A stretch of DNA of 64,000 nt from Sorangium aterium (GTDB taxonomy: Bacteria > Myxococcota_A > Polyangia > Polyangiales > Polyangiaceae), in the NCBI RefSeq assembly GCF_028368935.1, contig NZ_JAQNDK010000003.1, forward strand, positions 1,364,001 to 1,428,000, read 5' to 3'. Numbering within the stretch: position 1 is the first letter of the stretch; each line of letters starts with the position of its first letter. Both the position numbers and the translations under genes were made by a program. The notes under the pieces were generated by a model that was not told the DNA's origin, did no database searches, and saw nothing but the letters and a program-made list of their open reading frames with translations. Shown in pieces: positions 39,821 to 55,542 of this stretch.

Positions 39821-41224
39821 ATGAAGATCCCGCCCCTGGGCCGTGTCCTGCCCGCGCTCGGCCTGTCGCTCCTGGGCTGCGCGTCCGAGCCGTGGACGCT
39901 CACGATCGAGGTCATGCCGGGGCACGAGGCGACCGCCTTCCAGGAAGATCCGCCCGTCGCCCGGATCGAGGTGACCGCGACGGCGGCCGAGGGGGACGTC
40001 ACCGTATCGGCGGCGGCGGCACCGGGCGGCGAGCTCGATTTCGGCGAGATCCCGGCGCAGCGGGCGTACACGTTCGAGGTGCGCGGCCTCGACGCGGGCG
40101 GCGCGACGGTGGTGCGAGGCCGCTCCGCGGCGGGCATCTACCTCGCCGCGCTGACGGGCGACGTGCTGCCGCTCTTCGCCCAGCGGACCGGCCGGTGGGC
40201 GCGGCCGCCGGGCGAGCTCGCGGCGTCGCGCGTCGGCGCGCCCGGGGCGGCGCTGGCAGAGCGTTACCTGGTCCTCACCGGCGGGGCCGCGGCCGGGGGC
40301 GCCGCGGCGGGCGACGTGGACCCGGCGCGGCTCGACGCGTACGACCTCGCGACGTGGGGCGGGAGCGCCTCCAGCGGCGCGCTCCCGCGGGCGGCGCGGT
40401 CGCTCGTGGTCCGGGGAGACCTGCTGCTCACGCTGGACGACGAGGGCGCGACCTGGACCGACCTCGCGGCGGGGCAGAGCGCCGAGGCGTCGCTGCCCGA
40501 GGGGCTCGGCTCGTTCGCGGAGGTGGCGGGCGGCCGGACGATCGAGGCCTCGGACGGGCGCTCGTTCGTCGTCGGCGCGACGCGCTCGGGCGCGGCCGCG
40601 GGGGCGCCGGGCGAGCCCTCGGACAAGGTGCTCGTCGTCGGCGCGGACGGGGCGCTCTCGGTGGCGAAGCTCCGTCATGCGCGGGCCGGCGCCGCGGCCG
40701 TGTGGGTGGAGGGGCTGGGCCTGGTCGTCGCCGGCGGGAGCGCGGACGGCGCGGGGCTGGAGGTGCTCGGCGACGGCGCCACCGCGTTCTCGCCGAGGCC
40801 GTTTCCGCCGGACCCCTCCGAGGGGGCGGGCGCCGCGGTGACCGGTCCCGGGGAGATCGCGCTCGTCGGCGGGGTCCAGGGCGGCGCCGCGGCGCCGACC
40901 CGGCGGCTCGCGCCGGGGTGCGCCGTGACCTGCGCGGCGGTGGAGGTCGAGGGGGCAGCGCTGACCGCGGCCCTCGGGGGCGTCGCCGCGTTCGCGCTGC
41001 CCGGCGGGCGCATCCTCGCGGTGGGGTCCGAGGCGGGCGAGGACGGGCTGACGCGGAGCTTCATCGTCGACGTCGCGGCGGCGCAGGTCGAGGAGCTGCC
41101 GCTGAGGGAGCCGCGGCGCGGCGCGGCCGTGGTGCCCGCGCCGAACGGGACGCTCGCGGTGCTCGGCGGGATCCACGCGGATGGGACGCCGGCGCTGACG
41201 ATCGAGACGTTCTTCCCGGAGTGA
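39821..41224 (+). CDS. Kelch-like beta-propeller lipoprotein
   Basis: The product has 467 residues. A signal peptide ends in the lipobox LSLLGC. A beta-sandwich-like N-terminal part (TLTIEVMPGHEATAFQ, ARIEVTATAAEGDVTVSA) is followed by a propeller with Kelch-type repeats: AASRVGAPGAALAERYLVLT, LRHARAGAAAVWVEGLGLVV AGG, GPGEIALVGGVQGG, LREPRRGAAVVPAPNGTLAV. It should be anchored in the outer membrane or periplasm. Its function is unknown and no enzyme residues are visible. It is followed eight bases later by the palindrome array, which should terminate its transcript. Confidence 0.75.
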   Translation: MKIPPLGRVLPALGLSLLGCASEPWTLTIEVMPGHEATAFQEDPPVARIEVTATAAEGDVTVSAAAAPGGELDFGEIPAQRAYTFEVRGLDAGGATVVRGRSAAGIYLAALTGDVLPLFAQRTGRWARPPGELAASRVGAPGAALAERYLVLTGGAAAGGAAAGDVDPARLDAYDLATWGGSASSGALPRAARSLVVRGDLLLTLDDEGATWTDLAAGQSAEASLPEGLGSFAEVAGGRTIEASDGRSFVVGATRSGAAAGAPGEPSDKVLVVGADGALSVAKLRHARAGAAAVWVEGLGLVVAGGSADGAGLEVLGDGATAFSPRPFPPDPSEGAGAAVTGPGEIALVGGVQGGAAAPTRRLAPGCAVTCAAVEVEGAALTAALGGVAAFALPGGRILAVGSEAGEDGLTRSFIVDVAAAQVEELPLREPRRGAAVVPAPNGTLAVLGGIHADGTPALTIETFFPE

Positions 41225-41232
41225 GCGGTCCG

Positions 41233-41423
41233 CCGGAGGCTGTCGACAGCCTCCGGATTGAGTTTTTTCTCTCCCCGGAGGCTGTCGACAGCCTCCGGGT
41301 TGAGTTTTTTCTCTCCCCGGAGGCTGTCGACAGCCTCCGGATTGAGTTTTTTCTCTCCCCGGAGGCTGTCGACAGCCTCCGGTTGAGTTTTTTCTCTCCC
41401 CGGAGGCTATCGACAGCCTCCGG
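41233..41423 (+). terminator. Five tandem 24-bp palindromes, four with T-runs (tandem intrinsic terminators)
   Basis: Five copies start at 41233, 41275, 41317, 41359 and 41400 (period 42, last 41). Copies 1-4 are perfect palindromes with half-site CCGGAGGCTGTC centred on GTCGAC. Copy 5 has one change (CTATCGACAG). After copies 1-4 comes TTGAG and six Ts (T-runs at 41263, 41305, 41347 and 41388); after copy 5 the T-run is lost (GTTGAATTCCCC). On the plus strand each unit is a stem plus U-tract, so rightward transcription from the Kelch-like gene should stop. On the minus strand no T-run follows. Confidence 0.85.
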
Positions 41424-41483
41424 GTTGAATTCCCCAGGCACGACGCGCGCTGCGCCGGAAGCGGCGCGCCCCGCCCGACCATC

Positions 41484-41721: not shown

Positions 41722-42398
41722 ATGATCGGTGGTATCAAGCGCGCGCAGGCCAAGGCGGGTTCCGAGGCGGAGTTCGAGGCGATCTTCAGGACCCACGCGG
41801 CTGCGGTCCGGGCCCAGGAGCCGGGCAGCTCAGCTACGACCTGTTCAGGGACGGCGCGCCCGGGCGCTATGTGGTCCTGGACCGCTATCAAGACGGAGAG
41901 GCGCTGGCGGCCCACTGCGGCTCGCCCCACGGAGCCGCCTTGTTTCCGCGCATGCGTGCGCTGCTGGAGCGCCTGGAGGTGAGCTACTATCCGGGACACG
42001 AGCCCGGGGACACGCGATATACAGCCCTCGCCCTGACGCGCGCTCCCCTGGACACGGCGTTCCGTCTGGCCGCGGACATCCGCCTCCTGCCCCGCTGGGG
42101 CACGCGCTTCTGCCAGGGATTGCGACAGGAGGGGGAGCGCTGGATCGTGAGCTCCCCCCAGGGCGACGTGCGCTTCCGCTACGAGGCAGACCCGTCCGCG
42201 GGCGTGGTCTGGCACTGCGTGGATCCAGGCAGCGGGGAGCTGCGGATGCCCATGCGCATCGTGCGGCACGGCCCCGGGAGCCTGCTCCTCTTCACCATCC
42301 AGCGGCCGCCGGGGTGCTCCGAGGCGGCTTTCGACGAGCAGAGAGAATGGGTGGATCGGGAGCTGACTCAGCTTCGAGATCTGGTCGAGGGGTCTTAA
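41722..42398 (+). pseudogene. ABM-like plus SRPBCC protein, interrupted by a frameshift
   Basis: A strong ribosome site (AAGGAGG, 4 bases before) leads into MIGGIKRAQAKAGSEAEFEA then IFRTHAAAVRAQEPGS. The reading then fails, and the next frame continues the same domain as LSYDLFRDGAPGRYVVLDRY and QDGEALAAHCGSPHG. The two halves join as an antibiotic-biosynthesis-monooxygenase-like (ABM) ferredoxin fold if one base is added near 41826. The rest (about 105-225) is SRPBCC/polyketide-cyclase-like (RYTALALTRAPLDTAFRLAA, WIVSSPQGDVRFRYEADPSA, RIVRHGPGSLLLFTIQRPPG). It is either a true pseudogene or a sequencing error; codon usage stays normal on both sides. Confidence 0.7.
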
Positions 42399-54286: not shown

Positions 54287-55270
54287 ATGCCAGCGCAGGC
54301 ATCTGGGACGGGCGCCAGCCAGGCCAGCACCCCTGACAGACCGGGCGCACAGGCGGGAACGACCACCGTGCTCGGCGCAGGCGGCAACGCCTCGGGCTCG
54401 CGCGCCTCCCTGCTGGCGCGGACGCCGCCCGCTGCGCTGTGGCTTGTCACGGGCGCGGCTGCCCTCGTGGTCGTCGTGATCGCCGCGGCGCTGCTGCGCG
54501 ACGGCGTCTCCCTCTCCCGGCTCGAGGCGGCCTCGCTCGCCGAGCGCGCGACGCCGTCGAGCTCCGGCCTCCGGCGTCCGGTCGCGCCGAAACCCTCCGA
54601 TGCCGTCCCCGCCGACGAGCTGGCGACGGCGACCGCGGGCGGCGTGCTCGCGCTCGAGGCGCTCGCCTCGCGCTACCCGAAGGATCCGGCGATCTTCCGC
54701 GCGCTGATGCTGCGTCACGCGCTCCCGCCGCCTTACCACGCCGCCGCGCTCGCCGCGGCGAAGCGGCTGCTGGAGCTCGATCCGGGGGCGGCGGCCGACG
54801 ACGACGTGGAGCGCATCGTCTCGAGCGCCGCCGGAGGACCGCCCGAGGTGGCCTCGGCCGCGCTCGACCTGATGGCGAGCGGCATGGGCAGCCACGGGGC
54901 GGATCTGCTCTACGAGCTCGCGGTGGGGACCTCCGCGCTGAAGGAGCGCGCCGCGAAGCGGCTCGCGGAGGCGGCGGTCCAGGGGCGGGCGACGCCCGCG
55001 CTGCGCATCGCCCACGAGCTCCGGGTCGCGCCCTCCTGCAAGGCGAGGCAGGCCTTGCTGGCGCGCGCGACGACCGACGGAGATCGGCGCGCCATCGATG
55101 TCCTCGCGCCGCTCATCACCAGCAAGGGCAAGGGGTGCGGCTTTCTGGGCATGAGCCGCTGCACGGCGGCGTGCGCCTCGATCGCGGGAGAGATCAAGGC
55201 GGCGATCCAGGCGATCGAGGCGCGCACCGGGCCATCGCCCCGAGCGGCGGACGCGCCTGCGAGCCGATGA
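54287..55270 (+). CDS. Single-pass membrane protein with helical-repeat domain
   Basis: The product has 327 residues, started at the ATG six bases after AGGGGAG; a longer GTG start at 54242 is open. A disordered head and one membrane segment (AALWLVTGAAALVVVVIAAA) are followed by a helical-repeat extracytoplasmic domain (LEALASRYPKDPAIFRALML, AALAAAKRLLELDPGAAADD, VASAALDLMASGMGSHGADL, RIAHELRVAPSCKARQALLA) that resembles HEAT or TPR arrays. Cysteines cluster near the end (KGCGFLGMSRCTAACASI). The final codons lie in the tandem repeat array. It is probably linked functionally to the kinase gene upstream. Confidence 0.7.
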   Translation: MPAQASGTGASQASTPDRPGAQAGTTTVLGAGGNASGSRASLLARTPPAALWLVTGAAALVVVVIAAALLRDGVSLSRLEAASLAERATPSSSGLRRPVAPKPSDAVPADELATATAGGVLALEALASRYPKDPAIFRALMLRHALPPPYHAAALAAAKRLLELDPGAAADDDVERIVSSAAGGPPEVASAALDLMASGMGSHGADLLYELAVGTSALKERAAKRLAEAAVQGRATPALRIAHELRVAPSCKARQALLARATTDGDRRAIDVLAPLITSKGKGCGFLGMSRCTAACASIAGEIKAAIQAIEARTGPSPRAADAPASR

Positions 55271-55460
55271 CCGCGCCTGCGAGCCGACGACAGCGTCGGT
55301 GAGCCGATGACCGCGCCTGCGAGCCGATGACCGCGCCCGCGAGCCGATGACCGCGCCTGCGAGCCGACGACAGCGTCGGTGAGCCGATGACCGCGCCCGC
55401 GAGCCGATGACCGCGCCTGCGAGCCGACGACAGCGTCGGTGAGCCGATGACCGCGCCCGC
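55261..55460. repeat. Ten tandem 20-bp units with 60-bp higher-order pattern
   Basis: The array is exactly ten units of 20 bp. Three types occur: T = GAGCCGATGACCGCGCCTGC, C = GAGCCGATGACCGCGCCCGC and S = GAGCCGACGACAGCGTCGGT. The order is T S T C T S C T S C, so C-T-S trimers form a 60-bp higher-order repeat. Each S unit can fold as CCGACG-ACAG-CGTCGG (6-bp stem, 4-nt loop). The stop of the upstream gene lies in the first unit. The next gene starts 82 bases after the array. Confidence 0.9.
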
Positions 55461-55542
55461 GAGCCCATCGCCTCACGCTCGAATCGATGACGTTGACCGA
55501 GGGTTGCGCAGGTGGGAGCCTTGACATAGTAGGGCTCAACTC

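Follow-up and report, generated by a model that had tools for sequence, protein, structure and literature searches.

Introduction

REP elements are targets of insertion elements and are common in the 3' flanks of genes. The REP/BIME elements comprise the GTAG and CGTC superfamilies, and some REP families (CGTC) are also without a dedicated transposase (PMC3733652). The TMECO/PIT intrastrand-triplex motifs of E. coli are always intergenic, conserved and structure-forming DNA (PMC4666352); an earlier study that is cited there had detected neither promoter nor terminator activity.

Here, we describe a tandem palindrome array in a 64,000-nucleotide stretch of Sorangium aterium DNA (the window, which means the whole stretch that was analysed) and the repeats to which it is related. 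Like REP/BIME elements, the Sorangium repeats are short, palindromic and intergenic; the differences are that their units, each holding two hairpins, repeat directly in tandem at a fixed length of 41-42 bp, and that the family is of low copy number (tens) and has no RAYT/Y1 transposase. The intergenic position, conservation and structure-forming character are shared with TMECO/PIT, but the sequences are unrelated, TMECO/PIT being a purine/pyrimidine triplex motif. As in minisatellites (VNTRs), copy number varies among arrays and units resemble each other more closely inside an array than across arrays, whereas the Sorangium unit is conserved across dispersed loci and species and holds two palindromes. 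The window units also resemble intrinsic (Rho-independent) terminators, since each presents a G+C-rich hairpin and a coding-strand T6 just past a stop codon; they differ from these in that the T-tract lies off the main stem, that four copies stand in series and that most arrays of the family have no T-tract.

Anatomy of the window array

The array sits between two called genes, of which one ends at 41224 and the next starts at 41871, and it begins 8 nt past the TGA of the upstream gene (Table 1). The original prediction had described five palindromes spaced by 42, 42, 42 and 41 bp, with TTGAG and six Ts after each of the first four. Both features were confirmed in the sequence, the linkers reading (A/G)TTGAG or TTGAG, then TTTTTT and CTCTCC. 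The palindrome of copies 1-4 is CCGGAGGCTGTCGACAGCCTCCGG. Tandem Repeats Finder (TRF) reported a period of 42, 4.7 copies, 96% match and a score of 364, and a 20-mer palindrome core matched five times in the window versus 0 expected from shuffles.

Table 1. Coordinates of the upstream gene, the parts of the window array and the transposons found in palindromes
Feature	Locus	Position	Strand	Remarks
Upstream gene	window	39821-41224	+	467-aa protein; orthologues 82-85% identical within the genus
Palindrome copy 1 (hairpin A)	window	41233-41256		perfect, 24 bp
Linker 1	window	41257-41274	+	ATTGAG, T6, CTCTCC; T6 at 41263-41268
Palindrome copy 2	window	41275-41298		perfect, 24 bp; RNA fold of 41269-41310: -28.0 kcal/mol, z -6.0
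Linker 2	window	41299-41316	+	GTTGAG, T6, CTCTCC; T6 at 41305-41310
Palindrome copy 3	window	41317-41340		perfect, 24 bp; fold -23.6 kcal/mol, z -5.5
Linker 3	window	41341-41358	+	ATTGAG, T6, CTCTCC; T6 at 41347-41352
Palindrome copy 4	window	41359-41382		perfect, 24 bp; fold -22.8 kcal/mol, z -5.4
Linker 4	window	41383-41399	+	TTGAG, T6, CTCTCC; T6 at 41388-41393; 1 nt shorter
Palindrome copy 5	window	41400-41423		one mismatch (GGCTATC; CTATCGACAG); cmsearch with R1, own genome: E 9.4e-13
Truncated family-type linker half, array boundary	window	41424-41435	-	minus strand GGGGAATTCAAC; compared with the family consensus
Element	L095	2254-6409		hairpin A centre
Element	L105	2030-9075		hairpin A centre; carries N6 DNA methylase and metallo-beta-lactamase-fold protein
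Element	L124	1071-5672		hairpin A centre
Element	L125	1046-6037		hairpin A centre
Element	L149	1233-7540		hairpin A centre
Related element	L146	4634-9700		other palindrome (GGCCAGACGTCTGGCC type), duplication AGACGTCT
Related element	L152	4795-9360		other palindrome (GGCCAGACGTCTGGCC type), duplication AGACGTCT

Copy 5, which is the first unit of the array in the family (minus) orientation, had been called decayed. It has a single mismatch, and its tail is not merely a lost T-run: the sequence after copy 5 is GTTGAATTCCCC, and its reverse complement agrees with the normal family linker in the 3' half of the latter (..GAAATTCAAC). A copy followed by a piece of ordinary family linker marks the boundary of the array, and because this piece persists, the idea that stem and tail decayed together was unsupported.

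The protein encoded upstream had no Pfam match, and by eye its N-terminus was lipoprotein-signal-like. On the other side of the array, the start of the downstream gene (41722-42398, MIGGIKRAQAKAGSEAEFEAIF...) and its continuing open frame differ in frame near 41830, possibly by a frameshift or a sequencing error. Elsewhere in the window, at 55252-55465, there is a tandem array of 10.7 copies of a 20-bp unit, which is not a multiple of three.

A family of two-hairpin tandem repeats in Sorangium

When the own genome (13.47 Mb) was searched with the half-site, matches were also found outside the window array, two of them spaced by 84 bp. These belonged to a second array that kept the 42-bp period with a different linker, and a search with this linker (GGAGAGATGAAACTC) yielded further arrays in the own genome. 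The window unit, in its minus-strand reading, matches a 41-42-bp unit (consensus CCGGAGGCTGTCGAGAGCCTCCGGGGAGAATTGAAATTCAAC) made of two palindromes, hairpin A (GGAGGCTGTCGASAGCCTCC) and the small hairpin B (GAATTGAAATTC, with variants GAGTTGAAACTC, GAGCTGAAGCTC and others). Linker 1 reads GGAGAGAAAAAACTCAAT on that strand and is an altered hairpin-B linker of the family, the loop TGAA having become AAAA in the window.

A covariance model detected the unit in every one of the six Sorangium genomes, the own genome and five others, as intergenic arrays of about 1-6 copies. The searches scored 108-150 candidates per genome, and copy numbers, including the ~10 loci of the own genome, are lower bounds. 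The model R1, built partly from window units, gave 55-62 bits for these units in the own genome (E about 1e-14 to 1e-12) and 45-60 bits for units from genomes outside its building set. A refined model with a stricter cut-off, run on 60 genomes of the taxonomic family, found the repeat in the three of three genus members sampled, and outside the genus it gave a single array in G008, from a neighbouring genus, and a partial match in G021, from another. In the latter genome, a tandem array with a period of about 41 was observed at about 700-1100 of L129; it shares GAGTTGAAACTC and has GATTTTT after several units, and it is possibly a distant relative of the family with a T-tract.

The search of the rest of the genome and of related genomes thus yielded a dispersed family with a tandem spacing of 41-42 bp. 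A dispersed repeat family had been offered in the original prediction as an alternative, and it proved to be correct and the better description of the array, the unit recurring in the own genome and in relatives. We regard it as very probable that the window array belongs to a family of head-to-tail tandem repeats that are dispersed between genes in the Sorangium lineage. At one array locus, 5' of a conserved hypothetical gene, the flanks were homologous in G000, in Sorangium cellulosum So ce26 and So ceGT47, and in G005, implying that some arrays are old.

Comparison with known repeat and RNA classes

Tandem palindromic repeats carrying a GTTGAAAC-like motif could call to mind a CRISPR array or its remnant, but here the linkers are repeated as well, and there are no unique spacers because the entire 42-bp unit repeats; the chance of this explanation is close to nil. 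A known RNA family was likewise rejected, as there was no Rfam match at gathering score; the sub-threshold matches, mostly to eukaryotic microRNAs, were taken as chance.

Classical REP/BIME elements mobilised by a RAYT would also be short intergenic palindromes, targeted by insertion sequences and frequently next to stop codons. Nevertheless, the Y1 transposase domain (PF01797) was detected in none of the six genus genomes, while the same search was positive in 5 of 14 control genomes, and a RAYT-driven REP was rejected on this ground. Moreover, the Sorangium units are direct and not alternating, and number tens of copies instead of hundreds, so that this origin appears very unlikely. GGAG adjoins both hairpins; no unpaired end tag could be assigned, and no GTAG or CGTC end tag was recognised in the unit by eye. 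The repeats are best read as REP-like tandem palindromes that form a family lacking a Y1/RAYT transposase. As REP-like intergenic palindromic repeats the family is ordinary in kind; its tandem two-hairpin build is unusual. Among the papers searched, none described a Sorangium tandem twin-palindrome family, which is apparently undescribed so far.

Unit similarity and covariation

The mean identity of units was 97% in the window array, at most 95% in other arrays and 70% between arrays. Such high identity within compared with between arrays is as expected if local amplification homogenises each array, and it bears out the earlier proposal of a recent tandem amplification in the window. Some arrays, among them those in L105, L011 and L106, were not homogeneous (57-62% identity).

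Among 61 distinct units, the pair 30-37 of hairpin B covaried (A-T to G-C), being Watson-Crick in 49 of 61 units versus 31.5 expected from independent sides; as the sequences are related, these counts do not amount to a formal test. Hairpin A was conserved in the 61 units, with little compensation. Selection at the RNA level on the family strand was also considered, and the mismatch counts (42 G.U versus 65 A.C) were unconvincing and confounded by relatedness. The 12-mer count of hairpin B (GARYTGAARYTC) was overall not above that of the reversed control because most matches were GAGCTGAAGCTC, which were taken to be coding background; the count is usable only for the spacing of known arrays.

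T-tracts and the terminator question

A scan of 36-47 kb for terminator-like sites returned 10 sites versus 2.0 expected, and six of the 10 were inside the array. The computed folding energies were -21 to -28 kcal/mol for each copy (z -3.1 to -6.0). The T6 is confined to the coding strand of the upstream gene, and 5-6 nt separate it from the main stem. For copies 2 and 3, the predicted structure includes an outer CUC/GAG pairing by which the U-tract comes to lie beside the stem.

T-tracts are not a feature of the family. The linker of other arrays is the small hairpin without a T-tract, and T-runs of at least 5 were found in 4 of 37 array segments, namely the window (four copies), L096, L099 and L108. 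The window array was the only family member found with a T-tract per repeat (after copies 1-4), and these four T6 units count as one event because they probably come from one amplification. An orientation rule for the family was discarded, since the T-run faces a gene 3' end in the window and in L099 and not in L096 and L108. On the same strand, the nearest linker observed in the family was GAGTTTCATCTC, from which the window sequence GAGTTTTTTCTC is two substitutions away. The T6 tails look as if TTTCATC had changed locally to TTTTTTC and had then spread through the recent amplification.

The original prediction regarded the array as tandem terminators. If they were purpose-built for the upstream gene and selected as such, strong folds and four hairpins with T6 starting 8 nt past the stop codon would be accounted for, as would the copy in So ce26, where ~1.5 degraded units lie behind the orthologous gene in the same orientation as in the window and likewise have a T-rich tail (GAGTTTCTTTTCT). 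However, the T6 is displaced from the main stem, the arrays elsewhere mostly have no T-tracts, and no array was found behind the orthologous gene in So ceGT47, G002, G004 and G005, that is, in four of five relatives. The array is thus not a required terminator, and selection for this purpose is unlikely. Strong hairpins, the T6 on the coding strand only, the start close behind the stop codon and the T-rich copy in So ce26 also speak for a redundant intrinsic terminator of the upstream gene that arose by exaptation; we put the chances of this at about even.

Transposons in the palindrome centres

Five IS1-like cargo elements of 4.1-7.0 kb were inserted exactly in the middle of hairpin A, each between 8-bp duplicates TGTCGAGA (TCTCGACA on the other strand). 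Pfam scanning of the transposases of four elements identified PF03400 (IS1) in three, two being above the curated cut-off and that of L125 below it. The L095 transposase matched only PF00665, below the cut-off, and was 54% identical to that of L124. Two related elements lie in another palindrome (Table 1), and by eye those of L150 and L144 seemed to lie between inverted arms. The ends of the L143 and L148 elements were found, with no obvious palindrome at the insertion site, and no convincing element ends were found in L141, L142, L145 and L147. A preference of these transposons for palindrome centres in general seems likely, judging by about nine copies. At about 770-900 of L126 (G000 C6), a ~38-bp remnant with similar terminal repeats and a flanking TGTCGACG duplication lies inside a family unit; it seems to have arisen from such a transposon by deletion.

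Placement of arrays relative to genes

Genes were called with a simple codon-usage caller trained on the window. By these calls, 36 of 37 array segments had no overlap with a called gene and one overlapped partially; a stop codon faced the array within 75 nt in 15 of 37 segments, and a start lay within 75 nt in 4 of 37. Avoidance of divergent gene pairs was dropped as too weak to claim (3 divergent among 26 loci with both neighbours called).

This placement bears on a candidate protein-binding array, in which a regulator or nucleoid protein would meet the core CTGTCGACAG once per four helical turns (42 bp). The perfect palindrome, the near-constant 41-42-bp phasing across arrays and the use of the palindrome centre as insertion point by IS1-like transposons are compatible with it. 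But gene 3' flanks are favoured over start-adjacent positions, constant phasing is equally expected from common descent, and no candidate binding protein was found; we consider this explanation improbable.

Discussion

In the history that we propose for the repeat-family reading, arrays would grow and shrink through unequal recombination or replication slippage, and they may be tolerated or kept in gene 3' flanks, where hairpins would do little harm and might, REP-like, stabilise or end transcripts. In the window, one unit probably acquired the two substitutions in the hairpin B loop (plus strand). This T-rich unit would then have been amplified to the four hairpin-plus-T6 units facing the upstream gene, and these may by now provide that gene with a redundant intrinsic terminator. 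The analysis found no mechanism for the dispersal of the family. Taken as a whole, it is conceivable, and we propose only tentatively, that this is a genus-specific two-hairpin tandem family that has no dedicated mobility enzyme, has been retained in 3' flanks while species diverged, offers IS1-like cargo transposons a common docking site and has on one or more occasions become a multi-hairpin terminator.

A striking array thereby finds its explanation in a dispersed repeat family whose host genomes are among the largest in bacteria. The defined 8-bp landing site of a cargo-carrying transposon group makes target choice by palindrome or cruciform testable. The window array, for its part, suggests a route by which repeat DNA may be co-opted as a terminator, through two base changes and amplification.
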